Assembly (NCBI RefSeq): GCF_019550795.1
Contig: NZ_CP080545.1
Location: 2,561,501 to 2,625,500, forward strand
Length of the DNA stretch: 64,000 bases
Direction: 5' to 3'
DNA from: Paenibacillus sp. sptzw28
GTDB taxonomy: Bacteria > Bacillota > Bacilli > Paenibacillales > Paenibacillaceae
The number at the start of each line of letters is the position of its first letter. The stretch's first letter is position 1. The translations under genes were made by a program, and so were the position numbers. The notes under the pieces are model-generated. The model saw only the letters and a program-made list of their open reading frames with translations, did no database searches and was not told where the DNA came from. This document shows, piece after piece, positions 10,091 to 24,663 of the stretch.

Positions 10091-10108
10091 CAGTCAGGAG
10101 GCGGCTGG

Positions 10109-10912
10109 ATGGACGGTAGGGATTGGGGGCTGTTTCTACAGCCTTACGAGCAAGCGGTGGAAGAGCTTAAAGTCAAATTCAAGACGCTGCGGACGGAGTT
10201 GAAGACAAGAGAGGCCTATGCGCCGATCGAGTTTGTCACCGGGCGTGTGAAACGGATATCGAGCATATTGGAGAAAGCCAAACGGCTGCAGGTACCGATG
10301 GAGCGAATCGAAACCGGCATCGAAGACATTGCGGGCATTCGCATCATGTGCCAGTTTGTCGATGATATCCACCGCGTTGCGGAGCTGATCCGAACGCGTA
10401 AGGATCTCACGCTTGTATTCGAGAAAGATTATATCACGAATTTCAAGGACAGCGGCTATCGCAGCTTTCATATGATTGTAGAATACCCGGTTCAAACCGC
10501 GATTGGTCTGAAAATTGTGCTTGCGGAGGTGCAAATCCGCACGCTTGCGATGAATTTCTGGGCGACGATCGAGCATTCGCTTAACTATAAGTATAAGGAA
10601 AGCCTGCCCGACGAAGTGCGCCTGAGGCTCAAGAAGGCGGCCGAGGCCGCGTCCGTCCTCGATGCGGAAATGTCCAGCATCAGGAAGGAAATTCTTGATG
10701 CACAGCGGGAATTCGAGGAGAAGTCGAACATGGTTTCGAGTGTGCTGAGCGACATACAGGATCTGTATTTCTTCCACCGCGTGAGGGAAGCCGTTCAGTT
10801 TCAGCTGCGCTTTAACGAGCTGTGGGAGCAGGAGGATGCTTACGGGATCCGGATGCTCGCAGATGAAATCCGCACTGCGCTGGTTCGGGTAAAGAAAAGC
10901 GGTGGCTCCTAA
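10109..10912 (+). CDS. relQ: Small alarmone synthetase ((p)ppGpp synthetase)
   Basis: Makes (p)ppGpp from GTP/GDP and ATP without a hydrolase domain. The 267-aa protein carries the RelA/SpoT synthetase core, including GIRIMCQFVDDIHRVAELI, the KDSGYRSFHMIVEYP segment and the diagnostic EVQIRTLAMNFWATIEHSLN of the RelQ/YjbM group. A coiled-coil C-terminus (about 180-260) is longer than in the ~211-aa B. subtilis protein. It lies between pyrD and a DUF309 gene; the stop touches the next start. Co-transcription with pyrimidine synthesis would link nucleotide supply and alarmone signalling, which is inference. Confidence 0.92.
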   Translation: MDGRDWGLFLQPYEQAVEELKVKFKTLRTELKTREAYAPIEFVTGRVKRISSILEKAKRLQVPMERIETGIEDIAGIRIMCQFVDDIHRVAELIRTRKDLTLVFEKDYITNFKDSGYRSFHMIVEYPVQTAIGLKIVLAEVQIRTLAMNFWATIEHSLNYKYKESLPDEVRLRLKKAAEAASVLDAEMSSIRKEILDAQREFEEKSNMVSSVLSDIQDLYFFHRVREAVQFQLRFNELWEQEDAYGIRMLADEIRTALVRVKKSGGS

Positions 10913-15192: not shown

Positions 15193-16355
15193 TTGAAGAA
15201 AAGGAAATTAAAGGGGGATGTCGAATCAGTGAAAAGAAATGGGAAAATGGTTTACATTCAGGTTCGAGGAGATGAAGATGGTTATTGGCGCATTCAGCAT
15301 TCGCACGATAAAACGATTTGGAAAACAATGATTTCGATATTCCCTAATAAGTGGTTAACAGCCTCCCGCGAATGGAAGATACCGTGTGATGTCAGATCAA
15401 TTGAATTATTTTTGTCTCAGTTTAAAGGGGAAGCTGTGCAGTATCATCCGTCTGCACTCCATATTCCTTGGGTAAAAGAACTGGTCGAACGATGGCTTAA
15501 AGGAGATAACGCGGAGAAAGAAAGGCCGAATAAGGCCGAAATGACGGATGTTCTCGATGATGCACACTTGCGGAGATTGAGAGAGCGGTTGAAGCTGAGA
15601 GGGTATAGTCCGAAGACTCTAAAAGCATATGTTCTTCATGTCGAACATTTTCGCCGATATATCCCTAAGACGCTGAAAGATGTAGATAAAGAAAACATAA
15701 CGAGTTATTTAATTCATTTGATCGATCGCGGTTGTTCCCGCTCCTTTATCAACCAGATGCTCAGCGCATTAAAATTTTTCTATATGGAGGTATGTCCAAT
15801 TACATTTAACTGGGACTTCCCCCGTCCCAAGCGCGATCAAAAGCTGCCTGATGTTCTGAGCGCCGACGAGGTAGGAGCGATTCTAGCGTGCTGCTATACT
15901 TGACCTATTCCGCCGGTTTGCGTGTCGGCGAAGCGGTTCGGATTCGAGTAAAGGATATCGATGCTGCGCGTCAGGTTGTTTATTTCCGACAGGGAAAAGG
16001 GCGCAAGGACAGGCTTACACTTTTATCACAGAGAATGGTTGACATTCTGGGCAGTTACGTTCATGACGTACATCCGGATGCATGGCTTTTCCCGGGAGGT
16101 CAGCCAGGGAAGCATCTGACGGAGCGTAGCGCCCAGATGATTTTTGAACGAGCGAGAAGCAAGGCTGGGATTGTGAAAAAGGTCAGCATTCACAGCTTGC
16201 GGCATTCATTCGCCACCCATCTGCTTGAAAATGGCACCGATTTGCGCTATATCCAGGAACTCCTTGGCCATCAAAGCAGCAAAACGACACAAATATACAC
16301 GCACGTCTCCGTGCGCGACGTCAGGCGAATCCAAAGTCCTCTTAATCGACTATAA
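15193..16355 (+). pseudogene. Tyrosine recombinase (XerC/IntI-like), broken by an internal deletion
   Basis: The first part (15193-15903) has the N-terminal extension and core-binding SAM-like domain (LRERLKLRGYSPKTLKAYVLHVEHF) and stops after DEVGAILACCYT. The rest of the catalytic domain continues in another frame (from about 15888): LLYLTYSAGLRVGEAVR (Arg), GKGRKDR (Lys), HSLRH (His-Arg), LLGHQ (His) and TQIYTH (nucleophile Tyr), ending IQSPLNRL. In intact relatives about nine residues separate ILA and LLYLTYSAG; here only two bases remain, so about 25 bases are missing and the frame is shifted. The catalytic residues all survive. The start may be GTG at 15229 behind AAGGGGG, or TTG at 15193. 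The SPLNRL ending resembles integron integrases, but their extra helix is absent. Confidence 0.85.
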
Positions 16356-16438
16356 AGCTTCGCCTATCAGCAAAACACACGGCGTTTACTGAAGTTCATC
16401 TATTGGGACGATGAGACTGATTATTGGAAATTCGTTGA

Positions 16439-16720
16439 ATGGTAGTTATATGCAATTGGGGCAATTTTTTTGAGAGGTTGAAGCAAAATTGGTTTTCTAC
16501 ATATAAAACAATGGATTTTATTATTAGTATTATTATATATGGAGTAGGCGGAGTAGTAGTATTTTTACTATTTTTAATTTTCATAACAGAAGGAAGAATA
16601 TTTAATGATTCCGGTATGAGTTGGAAAATTTATGTATATGGGATAATAGGATCAGTATGTTACTACATTGTAGATGAGATAGGCAAATATGTTTTATCAA
16701 GAAAGGAAGTTAGTAAGTAA
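16439..16720 (+). CDS. Small membrane protein, unknown (cassette 1)
   Basis: A 93-aa protein I do not recognise. It has two hydrophobic stretches (about 25-50, FIISIIIYGVGGVVVFLLFL, and about 64-82) and a basic tail. Base composition is strongly AT-rich compared with the genes left of the island. The ribosome-binding site is poor, and a later in-frame ATG (16511) is an alternative start. It is the first gene after the recombinase and is followed 20 bases after its stop by structured repeat A, the layout of an integron gene cassette. Confidence 0.55.
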   Translation: MVVICNWGNFFERLKQNWFSTYKTMDFIISIIIYGVGGVVVFLLFLIFITEGRIFNDSGMSWKIYVYGIIGSVCYYIVDEIGKYVLSRKEVSK

Positions 16721-16740
16721 ATCAAGGATGGCCCCAACAG

Positions 16741-16901
16741 CATATAACACAGTTTCACGCTGTGGAGCTGTGCCCCTTGGTCTGCAGAGGCAATAGCAGA
16801 GATGTGAATTCAGCAGACAACCCTGCACCACCTAACCGCGTCACGGCCGGGACTAGCGTCCCTTAAGGTGGTGAGGGTTCGTGAATACAACAACGTTAAA
16901 T
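16741..16901 (+). repeat. attC-like cloverleaf repeat A
   Basis: The ends are CATATAAC (16741-16748) and GTTAAAT (16895-16901). Inside these, GTTTCACG (16752-16759) pairs with CGTGAATAC (16880-16888) leaving one extra base on the right arm. The interior folds into GTCTGC/GCAGAC (16780-16785, 16813-16818) and CACCACCT/AGGTGGTG (16826-16833, 16866-16873), the latter holding a GGGAC/GTCCC hairpin. The right end GTTRRRY fits the integron core-site consensus. It sits between two small genes and shares its plan with repeats B and C. Confidence 0.75.
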
Positions 16902-16915
16902 TAAATCGGGAGAGC

Positions 16916-17458
16916 ATGAAATACATTAAACCTAAACCAATAGGTGCGGTTCTTATCATATTGGAAATATTCATTATCTTAATGGTTAATAAATCAAATA
17001 ACGTACTTAATACAGAAGAGATTCACAACGATATTGAAAGAAGACTCGAGAAGATCTCAGACAGTAATAATTTATCGAACTTTCAGATTAGAAGTGAAAA
17101 AGAAATAGGTGACTATATGTTTTATGTTTTTACTTATAGATACAAGGATTACAATAGACTATCCAGCGCAGTTTATCAACGAGTCGGTAACCAAAAATAC
17201 AAATTCGATATGAGTATGGGACTAACATTTAAACTCAAAGATTCGGTAAATAAAGATAATATTGGGATAGAGAACTTTAGTTTTGATAAGTACCTTGTAT
17301 TTTATGGAATAGTTCAAAAAGGAAAGCCAAATAAATTCACTATTCAATCAGGGACAATTAAAACTCAAGTTATTTTTCCTTCTAATCAATTCTTTATAGA
17401 TCCGTATGTTCTAGAGAATCCAAATGAGTATAAAGTAACAGTTGAAAACTTCGAATAG
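16916..17458 (+). CDS. Membrane-anchored protein, unknown (cassette 2)
   Basis: A 180-aa protein not recognised. Residues 9-24 (IGAVLIILEIFIILMV) form a membrane anchor or uncleaved signal; the rest is polar, with an alternating pattern suggesting a beta-rich outer domain. There is no lipobox cysteine. The ATG at 16916 lies 15 bases after repeat A and has GGGAGA before it; the frame is open further upstream into the repeat but that part is not protein-like. The gene is AT-rich and on the same strand as the other cassettes. Confidence 0.6.
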   Translation: MKYIKPKPIGAVLIILEIFIILMVNKSNNVLNTEEIHNDIERRLEKISDSNNLSNFQIRSEKEIGDYMFYVFTYRYKDYNRLSSAVYQRVGNQKYKFDMSMGLTFKLKDSVNKDNIGIENFSFDKYLVFYGIVQKGKPNKFTIQSGTIKTQVIFPSNQFFIDPYVLENPNEYKVTVENFE

Positions 17459-17492
17459 AACTATGAGGGTAACTCTGGAGGTCCCCCTACAT

Positions 17493-17643
17493 CATATAAC
17501 ACCGTATTCACGCATCGGGGACGGCATGTTGTCCCCTTGGTCTGTCGCTAGCCGCTCCAGACACATCTGGCTAAGTCCGTCGGACCCGGCTCCCGCTAAT
17601 CACCTTAAGCCAGTGAGGGTTCGTGAATGCAAGAACGTTAGGT
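17493..17643 (+). repeat. attC-like cloverleaf repeat B
   Basis: The ends are CATATAAC (17493-17500) and GTTAGGT (17637-17643). GTATTCACG (17504-17512) pairs with CGTGAATGC (17622-17630). Interior stems are GGGGAC/GTCCCC (17517-17522, 17531-17536), GTCTG/CAGAC (17540-17544, 17558-17562) and CTGGCTAAG/CTTAAGCCAG (17567-17575, 17604-17613), the last enclosing GTCCG/CGGAC. CCCCTTGGTCTG and GTGAGGGTTCGTGAAT are shared with repeat A, while stem arms differ in compensating ways. It lies 34 bases after one stop codon and 47 before the next start. Confidence 0.78.
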
Positions 17644-17690
17644 GAAATTATTGAAAGACTTGATTTTTACTCATTACCTGGGGTGATGGT

Positions 17691-18425
17691 ATGGCATTGT
17701 CGGAAGAACATTCTTTTTTACTTAAATCTGTAGTTAATTGGTTTAACCAGAATGAACAAGTTTCGCATTACACCGAGGAAGTATACTCTGGTCCAAACCA
17801 AGCCGAATCATTTCTATTAAGTTCACTACCAAAAGAAGGTACTGTACTAGATGTTGGGTGCGGAGCTGGAAGAATAAGTTTGGAACTTGCACGACTTGGA
17901 TATACAGTAACGGGCATTGATGTGAGTGGAAAGTTAATTAATGTGGCTCGTGAGGTTGCAATAGAGAATAATTTAGATATTCGCTTTTGCCATACCGAAA
18001 GCCAAGGTTTAGCTTTTGATGATAGCCAGTTTGATATAGTTGTTGCATTTAAGGTCTTGTGTTATTTGCCAACCAAAGATCTAAGAATGTTTTTATTAAG
18101 TGATTTATATCGGGTCCTTAAGCCCGGTGGTAGCTGCGTATTAACGCAGAATATCGTTCCAGATGAATTCATTGATGAAGCTAAGGATGAACACTTTATA
18201 AATAGTCCAGCATCCAGATTTAGTATTCTTGAACCGGGAGATAATTTTCCATTAGGGATTGGTTATGTACATTGGTTTACTAGTTATGAATTGCTGGAAG
18301 AGATCAGAAATACAAAATTTGAGGTAACCCGATTTGAAAGTGATGAAAACTATGGGGGATCGGGTTATTTAAGACTAGTAGAACTGAAGAAACCTTGCTA
18401 TATAGATGGCACAAAAGATTTTTAA
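17691..18425 (+). CDS. Class I SAM-dependent methyltransferase (cassette 3)
   Basis: A 244-aa methyltransferase with a complete SAM-binding fold: motif I VLDVGCGAGRISLELARLGY (about 51-70), acidic loop GIDVSG, motif II around FDIVVAFKVLCYL and motif III YRVLKPGGSCVL. The substrate is not evident. The sequence is AT-rich. GGGGTGAT precedes the ATG by about 5 bases. Its stop coincides with the edge of a decayed IS630 element, so its last residues may be junction-derived. Confidence 0.85.
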   Translation: MALSEEHSFLLKSVVNWFNQNEQVSHYTEEVYSGPNQAESFLLSSLPKEGTVLDVGCGAGRISLELARLGYTVTGIDVSGKLINVAREVAIENNLDIRFCHTESQGLAFDDSQFDIVVAFKVLCYLPTKDLRMFLLSDLYRVLKPGGSCVLTQNIVPDEFIDEAKDEHFINSPASRFSILEPGDNFPLGIGYVHWFTSYELLEEIRNTKFEVTRFESDENYGGSGYLRLVELKKPCYIDGTKDF

Positions 18426-18923
18426 ATTCGGTTGCAAAGTCGAGAAACGATTCGAGAATGATCTTTGCTGATCTCTGAGATGAACGTTTGAACTGCACTT
18501 CGATTTTCAGCCAAACTGGCATAGAAGACATTGTATATGACAGATTTTTTCAGCCATCCCCATAATCCTTCAATGGGATTGAGATCGGGAACTGTACGGT
18601 GGCAGAAACATCAACTGGAGAGATTCGGCGTGAGCTTGTAAAAAGGGTTGAATCAGTTTTGCGTGATGGATGCGGGCATTACCCAGAATGATGACGAGTC
18701 TTTCACCTGGAAATCGGGCAACAATTCGCTTTAAAAACGATAGAAAAACGTGAGCATCATAGTGCTCTTCTTCGACACAAAATACTTCACCGCTGGCATA
18801 ATCGAGTTCGTCAAGCAGCTTGACGCCATGGTGCTTACCATAAGTTTTAATCTTTCGTTGATGCCCTTTGGGAAACCAGGTATTGGCTATGGCTTGGTAA
18901 TCACGGATCATGGATTCATCTTC
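18422..18923 (-). mobile_element. Decayed IS630-family transposase fragment
   Basis: On the minus strand the fragment starts at EDESMIRDYQAIANTWFPKG and continues through VKLLDELDYASGEVFCVEEEHYD to LMFLPPYS, then changes frame near 18590 (one extra base) and continues as DLNPIEGLWGWLKKSVIYNVFY to SRLCNRI. The N-terminal ~half of the transposase is missing. The second catalytic aspartate of the DDE triad is changed: IILGNARIHH where active relatives have DNARIHH. It is dead on three counts: truncation, frameshift and loss of a catalytic residue. It lies between two methyltransferase genes of opposite direction to itself. Confidence 0.85.
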
Positions 18924-19394
18924 ACGTTAATTATTATTCCATTTAGAGCATTCCAGTTACTAACTGAAGAGAGTCAACAGAGGAGATTTTTAGAGTTGGT
19001 TCTTAACCAATTGTCTGATGAAGGTGTTTTTATTATTAATACATATCGACCATACGGCATACTGGATGAATCTTGGGTACAGGATGAAACAGAAGATTGG
19101 GTAATTGAAGATCCTAAAACAAATAGTAGAGTTAGAAGAACTCATATTCGAAGAAGTATTGATATAAAAAAGCAGGTTACATATCCAGAACTCATTTATT
19201 ATGTTGAGGAGTCGGATGGAACAGTCAATAAGCATATTGAGAAGTTAGCCATGAAGTATTACTACGAAGATCAATTACGGGAATTGGTAGAGACAAGTGG
19301 TTTTACAATCAAAGAAGAGTATGGTTATTACGATTATCGTCCGATTCAAGACGGTCCAGAATTAATTTTTGTGTGCAATTCGAAGAAGAGTTGA
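18924..19394 (+). pseudogene. Methyltransferase C-terminal remnant
   Basis: About 155 codons beginning at FTLIIIPFRAFQLLTEESQQ and running to FVCNSKKS, the C-terminal half of a second class I SAM methyltransferase. The SAM-binding N-terminal half is absent and replaced by the IS630 fragment. An open frame reads through from 18750, but its first ~55 codons are the antisense of the transposase and not methyltransferase. Structured repeat C follows six bases after the stop, so this gene was probably an independent cassette body. Confidence 0.8.
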
Positions 19395-19399
19395 ACTTC

Positions 19400-19545
19400 A
19401 GTTAACAAAGTGTTCCAGCTTCGCGGCTGTCGCCGCTCGGTCTGCCCGAGGCATTTCAAGGAAGCGGATTCAGGCAGACACATCGATTCCCTAAGATAAG
19501 AGCTATCTAATGGGGATCGACGTCAGGAACACAAGAACGTTAGAA
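19400..19545 (+). repeat. attC-like cloverleaf repeat C
   Basis: TAAC (19403-19406) pairs with GTTA (19539-19542), and GTGTTCC (19410-19416) with GGAACAC (19526-19532); the conserved right spacer AAGAAC matches repeat B. Interior stems are GCGGC/GCCGC (19423-19427, 19432-19436), GTCTGCC/GGCAGAC (19440-19446, 19473-19479) and TCGATTCCC/GGGGATCGA (19483-19491, 19512-19520), the last enclosing AGATA/TATCT. Sequence identity to A and B is low outside GGTCTG and AACGTTAG, yet the same three-hairpin plan is kept. Confidence 0.72.
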
Positions 19546-19622
19546 GAAATCAATGCTAAAAACACTTGACAAAATCAAATTAAGATACTTATTAATCAAT
19601 TTTAATTTATGGAGTGAGACAA

Positions 19623-20180
19623 ATGATAGATTTGAAATATAAGCCAACAATTGTGGGGGAAAAAATTATTCTGAGACCTTTTAAAGTAATTGAAGATTTT
19701 CCACACTTAGAACAATGTTTAATGGATCCTGAGGTTTTAAAATTAACAGGAAGCTCATCTGATTATAATAGAGAAGAGGTTGTTAATTGGTATAATACAA
19801 GAAATGAACAAACTGACCGATTGGATCTCGCTATTGTTGATAAATTTCAAGATATCTTAGTTGGAGAAGTTGTGATCAATTTATATGATGAAAAAAGTCA
19901 AAGCATGAATTTTAGAATACTCATTGGACCCAATGGTAGAAATCGTGGAATAGGAACGGAAGCAACTCAACTAATTGTCGAGTATGTTTTTAAGAATACT
20001 GACCTTAACAAACTAACTTTGAGTGTTTTTGCTTTCAATCCTAGAGCAAAAAAAGTATATGAAAAAGTGGGATTTGTTATAGATAATGTTGATAAAAATG
20101 AATTAGAGTTTGAAGGAGAATGGATAGATTCTATTAATATGAAATTGACAAGAGAAAATTGGAAGAAGAAAAATGTATGA
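19623..20180 (+). CDS. GNAT N-acetyltransferase, RimJ/RimL type (cassette 4)
   Basis: A 185-aa acetyltransferase. It opens with a RimJ-like segment (GEKIILRPFKVIEDF) and has the acetyl-CoA loop in GPNGRNRGIGTEATQLIVEYVF (about 105-125) and the NPRAKKVYEKVGF helix. The ATG at 19623 has GGAG nine bases before; an upstream GTG (19614) is less likely. The acceptor may be a protein N-terminus or a small amine. It starts 77 bases after repeat C, and no further repeat follows it. Confidence 0.85.
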   Translation: MIDLKYKPTIVGEKIILRPFKVIEDFPHLEQCLMDPEVLKLTGSSSDYNREEVVNWYNTRNEQTDRLDLAIVDKFQDILVGEVVINLYDEKSQSMNFRILIGPNGRNRGIGTEATQLIVEYVFKNTDLNKLTLSVFAFNPRAKKVYEKVGFVIDNVDKNELEFEGEWIDSINMKLTRENWKKKNV

Positions 20181-20277
20181 GGTAGTCGAAATACAGAGGA
20201 CAACTATCTATCGACTGAGGACCCGTTAAGGAAAGCGGATAAGGTTCTATCGTATAAGCGGAAAGGAAATCCAATTT

Positions 20278-20832
20278 ATGGAGAATGTTAACACCAAAGA
20301 ATTTCCCGTTTTATCCAACATTATTGATTGGGGAATTGTGAAGGCCAGCTTTACTTTAAACAAAACAATAAATGAGGACTTGGTAAGCAACGTCAGTATA
20401 ATACCTTATGTAGGCAACAAATATGTTATCTTTCAAATCGATAATGGAATGTGGGAACTTCCAGGAGGAACCTTAGAGGCTGGAGAAAGATATCTCGAAG
20501 CTTTAAGACGTGAGGTTATGGAGGAGCTTGGAGGAGAATTAATTACATATGAAGTATTTGGTCAATTTAACTGTGAATCAGGTGCGGTAAAACCGTATAA
20601 ACCTCATATCCCACATCCGAAATTTGTAAGAATTGTTGGTTATGGCGAAGTGAAACTAGTTGGTAAACCGCTGAATCCTGAGGGTGGAGAGCAAGTAATT
20701 GCGGTAGAATTAGTTGACATTGAAGAGGCTGTTACTAGATTACAACAGATTGGAAGGCAAGACATAGCAGAATTATATCATCTGGCACACATTACCAGAA
20801 AATACAAAAATGAATTAACATCCGTCGATTAA
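20278..20832 (+). CDS. NUDIX hydrolase
   Basis: A 184-aa pyrophosphohydrolase of nucleoside diphosphate-linked compounds. The NUDIX box is complete: GGTLEAGERYLEALRREVMEELGG (starting near residue 64), providing the metal-binding glutamates. A 40-residue N-terminal extension precedes the NUDIX fold. The substrate is unknown. It lies about 97 bases after the acetyltransferase in an AT-rich context; the intergenic stretch holds no visible repeat. Confidence 0.85.
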   Translation: MENVNTKEFPVLSNIIDWGIVKASFTLNKTINEDLVSNVSIIPYVGNKYVIFQIDNGMWELPGGTLEAGERYLEALRREVMEELGGELITYEVFGQFNCESGAVKPYKPHIPHPKFVRIVGYGEVKLVGKPLNPEGGEQVIAVELVDIEEAVTRLQQIGRQDIAELYHLAHITRKYKNELTSVD

Positions 20833-20997
20833 AGGCAGGAAGCAATTAATGGAACAAAACGAAGATGAACAGATCGGGATTGTAATCAGTTATGCACCTG
20901 CTGCAGACATGGAAAGGAGGCTGAGCGTAAGGTTCTAGGGAAATTTTATATAGCCATTATAGCTAGCGGCATCTTTACGATTACAATAGTTATATTC

Positions 20998-21261
20998 TTG
21001 TTCGATTTATTAGAAATCGTGATAATGGCAATACCGGTACTCTTTTTTATCGTTTTCCCATTATCTCTAGTTATAAGCCGAGTTCCCTTCAAAAACAGGT
21101 TGGTAACAATTTTAATTCGATTAGTATTTCAGGTTCTAGTTCCATCAATCGCATTGGCGTATTTTGACCACTACTATGGGCTGCTGGTTATTTCAACACT
21201 ATATATATCCTTAATCTACTTTGTTTGTGAAATACTGCTTGAAATAACTGGGAAAAGATAA
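20998..21261 (+). CDS. Small membrane protein, unknown
   Basis: An 87-aa protein with about three hydrophobic segments (near 1-28, 34-55 and 60-80) and a short basic tail. The start is uncertain: the only accepted start codon in frame is TTG at 20998, yet the frame is open with hydrophobic codons back to about 20940, and a strong ribosome-binding site AAAGGAGG (20913-20920) has no suitable start codon behind it. The 5' end may therefore be damaged. It is followed ten bases later by another small exported protein. Confidence 0.45.
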   Translation: MFDLLEIVIMAIPVLFFIVFPLSLVISRVPFKNRLVTILIRLVFQVLVPSIALAYFDHYYGLLVISTLYISLIYFVCEILLEITGKR

Positions 21262-21270
21262 GGAGAAGGT

Positions 21271-21585
21271 ATGCACAAAAAGTATATCTTGACAGCTTTA
21301 TGTGCAATTTTATTTGCAGCAATAATTTTGAATCGAAGTATCCCTAGTGAACAAAAGTATGTCAATTGGTTATTGGAAAAACATAACATTTCATGTGTCA
21401 ATACAAATATTACTATTAATTGCACGCTGAGAATTAACGGTCAAGACCAATCAATTGATTGGCTTTCAAGAGCTAAGACTAATAACGGTCTTTACTTGAC
21501 GATTAAAGATGAGTATAAGGATGAAGAAGGAAACATAGTGATTATTAAATCATTAGGGATACTGAATGAATTCTACGGAAGATGA
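21271..21585 (+). CDS. Small exported protein, unknown
   Basis: A 104-aa protein with an N-terminal signal or anchor (KKYILTALCAILFAAIIL, residues 3-20) and a polar remainder with two cysteines (C42, C51) that could form a disulfide outside the cell. The ribosome-binding site AAGGAGAAGG lies just before the ATG. I do not recognise a family. It may be co-transcribed with the upstream membrane protein. Confidence 0.55.
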   Translation: MHKKYILTALCAILFAAIILNRSIPSEQKYVNWLLEKHNISCVNTNITINCTLRINGQDQSIDWLSRAKTNNGLYLTIKDEYKDEEGNIVIIKSLGILNEFYGR

Positions 21586-21614
21586 TAAGGAGTAAACAAA
21601 TCTATTGAAAAGGA

Positions 21615-22082
21615 TTGACAGAATTGATTAGTCCCTTACATGTTACACAAGCTACAATAGAAGATGTGGAAGATATAGCACATTTATTTAATGAGTATAG
21701 AATTTTCTATAATCAGGAATCTGATTTGGTGGCAGCCAGAAGTTTTTTATCTGACCGCTTTGAGCACAGTGAATCGATTCTATTCATAGCCAAAGATACC
21801 GTCTTGAACAAAGCAATTGGATTTACTCAACTGTATCCGTCGTTTTCATCAATTTCAATGAAGAGATCATGGATTTTGAATGATTTGTATGTAATTGATG
21901 CGTACAGAAGACGCGGTGCTGCCCAATTGTTATTGGATGCGGTAAAAACATACGCAAAACAAACAAAAGCTAAAGGAATAGGACTGTCAACGGCAATTGA
22001 CAATGAAAGGGCTCAAAGAATATATGAACGAAATGGATACGAGAGAGATAATGAATTTTTCCATTATTATTTGAGTTTATGA
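21615..22082 (+). CDS. GNAT N-acetyltransferase
   Basis: A 155-aa acetyltransferase with the acetyl-CoA loop VIDAYRRRGAAQLLLDAVKTYA (about 94-115) and the C-terminal NERAQRIYERNGYERD helix, as in the PanZ/aminoglycoside-like small GNATs. The start is either TTG at 21615 or TTG at 21624, the latter better spaced from AAAAGG. The acceptor is unknown. AT-rich, plus strand like all island genes. Confidence 0.82.
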   Translation: MTELISPLHVTQATIEDVEDIAHLFNEYRIFYNQESDLVAARSFLSDRFEHSESILFIAKDTVLNKAIGFTQLYPSFSSISMKRSWILNDLYVIDAYRRRGAAQLLLDAVKTYAKQTKAKGIGLSTAIDNERAQRIYERNGYERDNEFFHYYLSL

Positions 22083-22103
22083 CACCTGAGCAAGGATGAT
22101 ACG

Positions 22104-22604
22104 ATGGAACTCCGGCTAATGGCTACCGCTTTTCTGATTAACGGCAATAAAATACTGATGATGAGGAAAACCGGAAATAGATTTTATAACTCCGAATTTT
22201 GGACTGGTCTTGGCGGACATATAGAACCTGCCGAACTAAACAGTCCGATGGAAGCTTGTCTGAGGGAGATCTTTGAAGAGTCAGGGATACGAGACACCGA
22301 AATCAAGGAATTAAAGCTGAAATATATACTGCTGAGGATCAAGGAAGATGAAATCAGACAACAATTTGTTTACTTCGGTTACACAGATAAAGTTGATTTA
22401 TTACAATCCGAAGAAGGGGATTTGTTTTGGATTGATAAGAAAGAATTGTTGAGTTTGCATATGTCCAGCATAATCAAATATATGATAAAGCATGATTTGA
22501 ACCATCCGAAATTAGTCGGCACATTGGTTGGGACAATGACAGTTAATAAAGAACAATTACCCGAAATTCAATGGTCGGAGCTTAAGGACCCAATCGTTTT
22601 TTAA
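22104..22604 (+). CDS. NUDIX hydrolase (8-oxo-dGTP diphosphatase-like)
   Basis: A 166-aa NUDIX protein beginning ELRLMATAFLINGNKILMM, the layout of MutT-like enzymes. The NUDIX box reads GLGGHIEPAELNSPMEACLR then EIFEESG, with a short insertion before the conserved REx2EE block but with all metal-binding glutamates kept. It follows the GNAT gene by 21 bases and is followed by another GNAT after 19 bases, so the three probably form one transcript. Confidence 0.82.
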   Translation: MELRLMATAFLINGNKILMMRKTGNRFYNSEFWTGLGGHIEPAELNSPMEACLREIFEESGIRDTEIKELKLKYILLRIKEDEIRQQFVYFGYTDKVDLLQSEEGDLFWIDKKELLSLHMSSIIKYMIKHDLNHPKLVGTLVGTMTVNKEQLPEIQWSELKDPIVF

Positions 22605-22623
22605 GAGGAGCGGGTGATGGAGT

Positions 22624-23091
22624 TTGAGTCGACACATTAAGTTAGCACAGAAGAATGAAATCGGTCTCGTATATCAATTAATTCAGGAAGCATTTCAAGA
22701 ATATGACGGTAAACTTGATCCCCCATCAGGTGCTTTGAGGGAGTCGGAAGAAAGTATAAGTAAAAAAATATCAGAGCTTGGCGGGGCCATAATCGTTTGG
22801 GAAGACACAATGCCTATTGGGACGGCACTTTACGATTTCACCGGTGAATATATGTATATAGGTCGGGTTTCGGTTGTACCGGATAGTAGGGGACAAGGAA
22901 TTGGAAAAGAACTTATTTTATATCTAGAGGCACTAGCTCGGGAACGTCAACTTAAAACAACGAGAGTCGGAGTGAGATTATCAATTCCTCAAAATGTAAT
23001 TTTTTATCAGAGGCTTGGTTATCAAGTGTTAAACCATATTTTTTATCCTGAAGGAACGGACAGCTGGTATGTAATGCAGAAGAATCTATAG
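22624..23091 (+). CDS. GNAT N-acetyltransferase
   Basis: A 155-aa acetyltransferase with the acetyl-CoA binding motif VVPDSRGQGIGKELILYLEA (about 80-100) and an IPQNVIFYQRLGY helix. The start is puzzling: TTG at 22624 has no well placed ribosome-binding site, whereas ATG at 22617 is well placed behind GAGGAG but in another frame. Removing one T from the TTT at 22623-22625 would give a natural N-terminus MELSRHIK. The gene may thus carry a one-base insertion at its 5' end. Confidence 0.75.
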   Translation: MSRHIKLAQKNEIGLVYQLIQEAFQEYDGKLDPPSGALRESEESISKKISELGGAIIVWEDTMPIGTALYDFTGEYMYIGRVSVVPDSRGQGIGKELILYLEALARERQLKTTRVGVRLSIPQNVIFYQRLGYQVLNHIFYPEGTDSWYVMQKNL

Positions 23092-23095
23092 AAAT

Positions 23096-23600
23096 TTGAT
23101 GAATAGAGGTCCATACAGATGTATCAGCTCCGAGATGCAAGATATTTTGGGTTTAAGGCCGCATATAACTTTAGCCGTATATAATGATATTCCGGACCTG
23201 GATTCGTCTTTGGAACGGTTTACACATTATTTTGACAATGTTCAAGAAATTGGTTTGAAGTTTGAAGTACTAGCGTTGTTCCCGAGCTCGGGCACACTTT
23301 TTCTAAACCCCCACAGTGACTGAAGAGTTAATCGGAATTCACAAAGATTATCATGGTCATTTTGAGGAATTAATCGAACTCGCAAACCCTTATTATATAC
23401 CAAAAAGTTGGGACCCTCACTGTACATTGGCGCTGCGGTTATCCTCGGAGAAAGCACTTGAAGCGATGAAGTATTGTTATGAAGATTTCACACCTAGAAG
23501 AAGTAAAATTATTGAAGCAGGTGTCATCAAACTTGAGTATGATATGAATCGTAAATGCAAAAGCAGTCAAACTATACATTTGAAGAAATTACGAGGTTAA
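23096..23600 (+). pseudogene. 2'-5' RNA ligase family protein, frameshifted
   Basis: Both HxT motifs of the LigT/2H phosphoesterase fold are present, HITLAVY in the first frame and HCTLAL in the second. The first frame ends at 23323 after TLFLNPHSD; the second (from about 23316) starts TEELIGIHKDYHGHF. A run of five Cs (23308-23312) lies at the break; with four Cs the protein reads TLFLNPTVTEELI without interruption. The N-terminus is also shorter than usual for the family. It could be a dead gene, a phase-variable one or a sequencing error in the homopolymer. Confidence 0.8.
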
Positions 23601-24663
23601 TTGCATCCGATAATGGACATGGCTTAATTGAAAAATAGCCCCAAGCGGAGTTAAAGCCGAACGTTGTAGCCTGCAGTTCTTCGGGAGCCATCTTTTTCAC
23701 AAGCACATTGAGCGATGGCAGCATCCCGCCGATAAATAGCCCGAGAAGAAATCTTCCCACAAGCAATACGCCTATTCCTGTGGCTAAAGCCTGAGGAATA
23801 TACATAAACGCCGCTGCACATAGCGCGAGAACGAGAATTTTGCGTTGGCCGATACGATCGCCAAGTCTTCCGAGCGTCGGCGCTCCAATAAGATTGGCCA
23901 TACCGCTCATCGCCACGACAAGTCCCGCAATCAAAGCTAAATGTGCGCCGGTATAGAGTGTCTTCGCATAAATGGTAACAATGGGTTCAATGCTCATCAT
24001 GCCAACCTGGATGAACGTGGAGGCCGCAAAAACGGGGAATAGCGGCTTTAATTGCATGAGTCCCGCTTTCGGACGGCTTCTGGCGTCCACTCTGGGCTGA
24101 TGCTGTTCGTGTACGAAGAAGATGACGATAACGGCAGCGGCAATGAGCAATGCGCCCGTGCAATAGAAAACGCCGCGAAATCCAATTAATTCCGACAGCA
24201 CGCCGCCAATCAGGGGACCGATAAGACTTCCCGCAATTGCGCCGGTTTGAAGGGTGCCAAGGGCACGGCCCGATTGATCATTGGGCGTTATTGATGCCTG
24301 AAGAGAGATCGCCATCGAGATAAAGCCGGAGAAAATTCCGTTCAAGAACCGAAGCAAAAGCAATTGCCACACCGCACCTACAGCGCCCATCAAGACGGTT
24401 ACGATCCCCATCCCCAAGCTGGCACGAATAAGCATTACCTTGCGTCCATGTCTATCGGCAAGTGCTCCCCAAATCGGTTGGCAGATAACAGCCGTGATGA
24501 ATTGAGCGGAGAACACCCAGCCCGACCATCGTTCAATATCCTGCAATTGATATATACCAAGTTTTTCAATGTATAGTGGAAGGAACGGGATCACTAAACT
24601 CATGCCGGCTGTAACGGAGAAGTTAGCCGCCCATAAGATCCACAGGGTACGTTTCCAGCTCAC
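23572..24663 (-). pseudogene. MFS drug-efflux-type transporter, C-terminus truncated
   Basis: A major facilitator of the 12-helix drug/proton antiporter type, with the loop motif GALADRHGRKVML between helices 2 and 3 and the second-half repeat GRLGDRIGQRKILVLALCAA. Recognisable MFS sequence ends at TTFGFNSA; the last ~24 residues (WGYFSIKPCPLS...) are encoded by island DNA. The final two helices (about 40-50 residues) are missing, so the protein is probably inactive. The junction near 23,636 marks the right edge of the AT-rich island. It is divergent in origin from the island (minus strand, higher GC) and follows the isochorismatase gene. Confidence 0.82.

Follow-up and report, generated by a model that had tools for sequence, protein, structure and literature searches.

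A stretch of 64,000 nucleotides from Paenibacillus sp. sptzw28 (NZ_CP080545.1, positions 2,561,501 to 2,625,500; hereafter the window, with positions counted from its first letter) appears to hold the remnant of an integron-like gene-cassette system built on a tyrosine recombinase that is unlike the integron integrase IntI, a reading to which we assign a probability of about 0.87 on the basis of sequence comparisons. In its intact form, such a system would consist of the recombinase, followed by an attachment site (attI) and then by cassettes composed of one gene and one attC-like repeat each, all on one strand. The repeat would fold as a single strand with an R'' box, an asymmetric spacer and a mostly bulge-free stem. 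A circular cassette would be joined into attI by the recombinase within the shared GTTA, and a cassette would be excised between two repeats, likewise within the shared GTTA. The layout, the conserved fold, the circle signature of the cassettes, the attI boundary and the relocation of cassettes can all be read from the loci compared below; the neighbouring recombinase is the presumed enzyme of cassette joining, and the folded single strand is its putative substrate.

The three repeats of the window (A, B and C) are far beyond chance. With repeat B as the only query, a blastn search of the strain's own 6.1-Mb genome revealed two more arrays, and a covariance model trained on 31 repeat copies found 38 copies in this genome, 31 of which are the training set itself. 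Three of them lie in the window, 23 between 3.798 and 3.817 Mb, 10 between 5.817 and 5.826 Mb, and 2 are single copies. The array of 23 repeats extends over 18 kb and is directly preceded, on the same strand, by an intact recombinase of 381 amino acids, while no PF00589 protein was found near the 5.82-Mb array. A random scatter of the repeats, raised as the counter-case in the original prediction made from the window sequence alone, was not seen: two arrays account for 33 of the 38 copies and the window for 3. The single copies occupy positions 1422917-1423076 and 3778462-3778605, the first about 2 kb from a recombinase fragment. An Rfam family as the source of the repeats was rejected, as none of them had a match at E ≤ 1 and the lone weak match, to a glutamine riboswitch, falls outside the region.

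An integron cassette is a circle before its insertion; therefore, the repeat whose 5' box pairs with its first bases should be its own, not the preceding one. In Paenibacillaceae, this was analyzed using the four variable bases next to GTTA. Repeats without TAAC or CGTTA, or with a stem shorter than 5 bp, were excluded before counting, and cassette length was limited to 200-1500 bases in 19 other Paenibacillaceae loci and to 200-2500 bases in loci outside Paenibacillus. In the sptzw28 genome, 102 of 120 bases matched and 20 of 30 cassettes were perfect, while 20,000 shuffles averaged 62 matching bases and never exceeded 80 of the 120. In the 19 other loci, 84 of 104 cassettes were perfect. Removal of one cassette redundant at 95% left 83 of 103, for which 5,000 permutations yielded a mean of 6.7 perfect cassettes and a maximum of 19; two of these loci (L028 and L146) have 2.6 kb of identical DNA in common. 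Full matches between the 5' box and the 3' flank within one repeat were limited to 18 of 152 cases.

The attI boundary was delineated in eight species of Paenibacillus whose recombinases are closely related: conservation downstream of the recombinase gene extends as far as ...ATTAGATGTTA (GTTA), after which different cassettes follow. Relocated cassettes were found among the matches listed. One is present in both large arrays of the sptzw28 genome (99.6% alike over 1,060 bases), with identity running from AACGTTA to AACGTTA, and a second (89% alike over 771 bases) stands behind attI in locus L043 and behind a repeat in locus L022, starting from GTTA in both. The test at GTTA named in the original prediction came out in favour of the integron reading, as the same cassettes occur at different places with their joints at GTTA. 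Judged from sequence, the cassettes are units that are bounded at GTTA, were circular before insertion, enter at attI behind the recombinase and move between arrays. Their longest open reading frame (ORF) lay on the array strand in 104 of 130 cassettes, where it filled a median of 86% of the cassette length, and on the opposite strand in 11; the remaining 15 had no ORF of 60 amino acids. Among the Pfam families listed for 103 cassette proteins (25 of 49, E ≤ 1e-5), GNAT was the commonest (7), NUDIX was found 3 times, and one protein corresponded to Cass2, an 'integron-associated effector binding protein'. PADLOC assigned cassette proteins to 18 families, mostly by single matches. The first cassette of locus L027 (10750-11229) is composed of tandem units of about 81 bases that are 87-89% alike.

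Alignment of the 31 repeats indicated 21 consensus pairs, 12 of which had changed on both sides in a compensatory manner; the sequence within the repeat varies widely while pairing is kept. Folded as single sequences, repeats A and C were better than their shuffles, but repeat B was not (z -0.8), and the fold is therefore argued from covariation. The R'' box of the folded repeat is NNNNTAAC, and the repeats of Paenibacillaceae carry three inner hairpins. In a set of 189 repeats, for which the script required TAAC and CGTTA, at least 7 contiguous pairs beside the spacers were present in 144, making the stem mostly bulge-free. The spacers are asymmetric, with 3-4 bases on the 5' side in 157 and 6-7 on the 3' side in 155 of the 189, which recalls the unpaired central spacer of attC. 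Since this stem (L) is mostly bulge-free, bulged or classical extrahelical bases were not evident in the first stem of the 189 repeats. The I2 helix of IntI is described in one account as docking the bulged bases of the first attC stem (PMC7790495). The consensus of the joint is GTTAKVNGAAA, its GTTA being present in 189 of 189 repeats because the script required CGTTA; GTTRRRY was rejected as the core site, as it fits only 50 of the 189. The GAAA behind the variable box is common to the cassettes (G in 183, A in 175, 173 and 187 of 189), and its bases are unpaired with the cassette's own box.

The term 'atypical', used in the original prediction, proved apt for the recombinase, which is not an IntI by either the insert or the profile cut-off. 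The insert characteristic of IntI is missing in all 57 relatives, in which the KDR and LRH motifs are separated by 58-61 residues, compared with 100 and 101 in two IntI references. The intact recombinase scored 191.5 bits against TIGR02249, below the cut-off of 265, whereas the IntI references reached 507.5 and 446.7 bits, and none of 59 Paenibacillaceae genomes contained an IntI over this cut-off. By sequence, XerA is nearly as close to the recombinase as IntI (123.4 versus 123.8 bits); the C-terminal SPLD motif is common to the recombinase and IntI. Support in the recombinase tree, which has only two IntI rows, is too weak to place IntI as a sister. Some relatives bear the NCBI name 'site-specific tyrosine recombinase/integron integrase', a label that does not describe the system itself.

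An N-terminal extension is present in 51 of the 57 relatives and matches by profile the HARP domain of SMARCAL1 (4o66, E 1.6e-4). At E ≤ 1, Pfam HARP was detected in 15 of 57 full proteins and in 20 of 43 domains; the N-terminal domain of the sptzw28 protein alone had no Pfam HARP match, a Foldseek search with the N-terminal domain alone gave no match under 0.001, and we found no literature joining HARP and integrase. This HARP-like domain may recognise branched DNA and so replace the I2 helix of IntI, which one source holds to be necessary for cassette capture, the feature that confers single-strand recombination and unique to IntI (PMC7790495). The six relatives without the extension (L058, L075, L081, L085, L087 and L096) form one group (100/98) against the other labelled tree rows.

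An SOS (LexA) box at the promoter of the integron integrase is common, though not universal. SOS control of the recombinase was rejected, as a motif scan found no such box near its start in 15 Paenibacillus loci. Two LexA-like boxes (GAACAAATGTTC and GAACATACGTTC) are present at about 10100-10140 of locus L103 (sptzw28, 3.819 Mb), 658-688 bases upstream of the intact recombinase, and adjoin a divergent gene that by eye resembles a Y-family polymerase.

A contig search with the catalytic part of the window recombinase retrieved at least 80 loci, and the repeat model was run on 43 of these and on one plasmid locus. It detected repeats in 15 of the 15 Paenibacillus loci found by the recombinase search; of its 106 matches in the 44 loci, 105 were on the recombinase strand, 103 of them downstream of the recombinase. 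Without a model, a search for AACA-stem-stem-CGTT sites gave 54 hits downstream on the recombinase strand (298 kb) and 8 on the other strand; 2 hits fell upstream (588 kb), and shuffled DNA yielded 2. Among the 59 Paenibacillaceae genomes, 40 carried repeats, and these covered 17 of 19 sampled genera; the rarity or absence of integrons that the original prediction had stated for Firmicutes does not extend to such systems in this family. The recombinase (E ≤ 1e-50) was present in 19 genomes, all with 13-48 repeats, while 21 of the 40 genomes without it had repeats and 7 had 13 or more (Fisher test over 59 genomes, p = 1.7e-4 for any repeats and 4.7e-10 for at least 13). Short recombinase fragments are left in some genomes without the full gene (G005, G037, G038 and G049). 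In 101 Bacillota genomes, the repeat model matched in 8 and the recombinase was found in 10, with both in 3.

In the loci outside Paenibacillus, the circle test was performed on six bases. Downstream of the recombinase, 11 of 19 neighbouring pairs were perfect (6/6), compared with a mean of 0.7 and a maximum of 5 in 10,000 permutations, and perfect pairs numbered 1 of 4 on the other strand (L021) and 0 of 2 upstream. The 11 pairs come from a Peptococcaceae locus (L045), four Flavobacterium loci (L074, L077, L078 and L098) and the taxonomically unassigned L094, which adjoins a Bacteroidales row in the tree. Since most of the 35 loci with more than 1 kb of downstream DNA had no perfect pair, the spread is established for Clostridia and Bacteroidota only; Nitrospirae loci had repeats similar by eye and no perfect pair. 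Unlike in other loci, the repeats with the cassette signature in L021, a contig of a Dehalococcoidia metagenome-assembled genome, are on the strand opposite the recombinase. In a Chryseobacterium plasmid (L126, NZ_CP041688), a relative of the recombinase is followed by four 282-base repeats, and the downstream genes include an IS110 transposase and a group II intron protein. IS110 elements and group II introns target attC. The plasmid recombinase is possibly a mobile copy.

Three other explanations of these data were considered. The arrays might be ordinary clusters of attC sites lacking an integrase (CALINs), derived from a canonical proteobacterial integron whose IntI is elsewhere or lost, with the neighbouring recombinase as a bystander. 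Their layout and cassette logic are indeed those of integrons, and both the 5.82-Mb array of sptzw28 and several genomes have repeats without a recombinase. We nevertheless regard this as very improbable: 59 of 59 genomes are devoid of an IntI over the TIGR02249 cut-off of 265, a level that the references exceed with 447 and 508 bits, the attI end of the arrays is occupied by this recombinase and not by IntI, and the repeats are family-specific and were detected in 17 of the 19 sampled genera. It is hardly credible that the repeats are a MITE-like (miniature inverted-repeat transposable element) or structured-RNA family inserting between genes, which would make the array an insertion pile-up and the cassettes immobile. 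The repeats fold well, single copies lie outside the arrays (1422917 and 3778462), and two Flavobacterium repeats have a 5' box that matches their own 3' flank; however, a transposed repeat would be expected to arrive with both of its ends, and the 3' flank matched in only 18 of 152 cases, whereas the cassette's own start did so in 84 of 104. Furthermore, complete units of gene and repeat relocate, the orientation is fixed relative to the recombinase, and the repeats have no Rfam match (E ≤ 1).

The third explanation, that the arrays recombine as double-stranded Xer-like sites and that the hairpin serves a different purpose, for example in terminating transcription or stabilising RNA, we consider unlikely, though we retain it because the circle signature alone is no proof of single-strand recombination. 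In its favour, Xer-type recombinases without an I2 helix are described as using double-stranded sites (PMC7790495), and most L stems are free of bulges (7 or more contiguous pairs in 144 of 189 repeats), with no classical extrahelical bases evident. On the other hand, the stem is kept by compensatory change, the box complementarity is predicted by a folded circular site, and pairing is retained while the repeat sequence varies widely. If the integron-like reading is extended, the system might represent a second class of integrons, in which genes would be captured through folded single-stranded attC sites without an I2 helix, these sites being recognised by a HARP-type branched-DNA-binding domain fused to an Xer-like recombinase. 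Such a class would be widespread in Paenibacillaceae, with members in Clostridia and Bacteroidota, and would have arisen beside IntI or from a common cassette-moving ancestor; we consider this broader proposal about evenly balanced between right and wrong.

The features of the window are given in Table 1. The original prediction had placed the tyrosine recombinase, the three repeats and the short genes on the same strand correctly; its integron-like reading is supported, and the observation itself was confirmed. The recombinase does stand at the start of the island, but not as an intact single gene: its two ORFs are in different frames and about a dozen residues are missing ahead of the GLR motif, and therefore the window copy is a pseudogene. 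Its catalytic part is 64% identical to that of the intact recombinase of the same genome. The attI-like junction resembles, by eye and unscored, the attI conserved among intact copies (GAAATTCGTNGANT..GTTA), and the start of cassette 1 (16445, GTTATATG) is the exact complement of box A, CATATAAC (inverted repeat I10). The boxes of A, B and C (16741, 17493 and 19399) begin 20, 34 and 4 bases past the stop codons ending at 16720, 17458 and 19394, so that the first two predicted gaps were correct and the third, given as 5, was one base too long. Repeats A and B end in GTTRRRY, as had been noted (GTTAAAT and GTTAGGT), and the end of repeat C (GTTAGAA) misfits.

Table 1. Coordinates of the recombinase pseudogene and cassette remnant in the window
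Feature	Position	Strand	Basis or remark
Recombinase N-terminal part (extension and SAM-like core-binding domain)	15193..15903	+	Pseudogene fragment
Recombinase C-terminal catalytic part, other frame, without IntI insert	15888..16355	+	Pseudogene fragment
attI-like junction, GTTA end at 16445-16448	16421..16448	+	By-eye comparison, unscored
Cassette 1, small membrane-type ORF with end at 16720	16445..16894	+	ORFs, inverted repeat I10
attC-like repeat A	16741..16898	+	Covariance model E 2.3e-35, repeat A in training set
Cassette 2, ORF of no assigned function, end at 17458	16895..17636	+	ORFs
attC-like repeat B	17493..17640	+	Covariance model E 1.3e-27, repeat B in training set
Disrupted region, one or two former cassettes	17637..19538	+	ORFs
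attC-like repeat C, stem with three inner hairpins	19399..19542	+	Fold z -4.5, model E 1.3e-34, repeat C in training set
Last cassette start (GTTAGAAG) and GNAT gene ending at 20180	19539..20180	+	ORFs, model scan

The disrupted region contains a methyltransferase ORF (17691-18425) and the remains of a second methyltransferase-like ORF (to 19394). Within it, a piece of a transposase-like ORF, which we take to be IS630-like, lies on the minus strand at about 18570-18911 and has probably fused two former cassettes. In each of the two testable later cassettes of the window, no more than 2 of the 4 bases fit the cassette's own box, in line with decay, and together with the broken recombinase this agrees with the earlier description of the system as decayed. 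The array, predicted to extend over 15193..23640, was confirmed as far as about 20180, but the genes beyond are not cassettes: the covariance model scan found no repeat behind the GNAT gene or among the genes from 20278 to 23600.

The system would work like an integron. As in IntI integrons, attI adjoins a tyrosine recombinase gene, the cassettes of an array carry a single gene each, the R'' and R' boxes of the folded repeats are complementary, and the joint contains GTT; the SPLD C terminus and a cargo of GNAT, NUDIX and Cass2 proteins are also shared. It is not of the IntI type by either of two defining tests, the additional domain and the profile cut-off, nor by the GTTRRRY core. The recombinase lacks the additional domain of IntI, scores below the IntI profile cut-off, has a HARP-like N-terminal extension and is encoded on the cassette strand; the joint is GTTAKVNGAAA and not GTTRRRY, and the Paenibacillaceae repeat has three hairpins. 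With CALIN elements, the 5.82-Mb array has in common repeats with no recombinase nearby, whereas other arrays have a recombinase that would not be counted by tools demanding the IntI domain. XerA, XerC and XerD have the same core-binding and catalytic domains but differ in the N-terminal extension, the SPLD C terminus and the adjacent cassette arrays found here, and the substrate-recognition domains of HARP (SMARCAL1), XPB and UvsW differ in that the domain predicted here is fused to a tyrosine recombinase and not to a helicase.

Integrons are described as extremely rare in Firmicutes in the IntegronFinder 2.0 survey, which reports one complete integron (Limnochorda pilosa) and few CALINs for this phylum (PMC9024848). 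The L. pilosa integron, known here by the survey's description, is from the same phylum (Bacillota) but was found by tools that seek IntI; some of the Firmicutes CALINs of that survey may be the arrays described here. A review lists Firmicutes and Bacteroidota among integron-bearing phyla (PMC8618304), and archaeal integrons are reported to have an IntI with the additional domain (PMC9668308). Among the titles and abstract beginnings of open-licence PMC papers on integrons in Paenibacillus, Firmicutes/Bacillota and Flavobacteri*, a scope that excludes preprints and subscription papers, we found no description of such a system. In a family of soil bacteria, arrays that show the complete cassette signature are preceded by a recombinase family without the I2 helix. 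Should this recombinase be active, integrons would not be defined by one enzyme family, searches aimed at IntI would have led to an undercount of their distribution, and a natural I2-free enzyme would make it possible to test how cassette capture originated. The arrays would also represent a large pool of mobile cassettes, with mostly uncharacterised genes, in Gram-positive bacteria.

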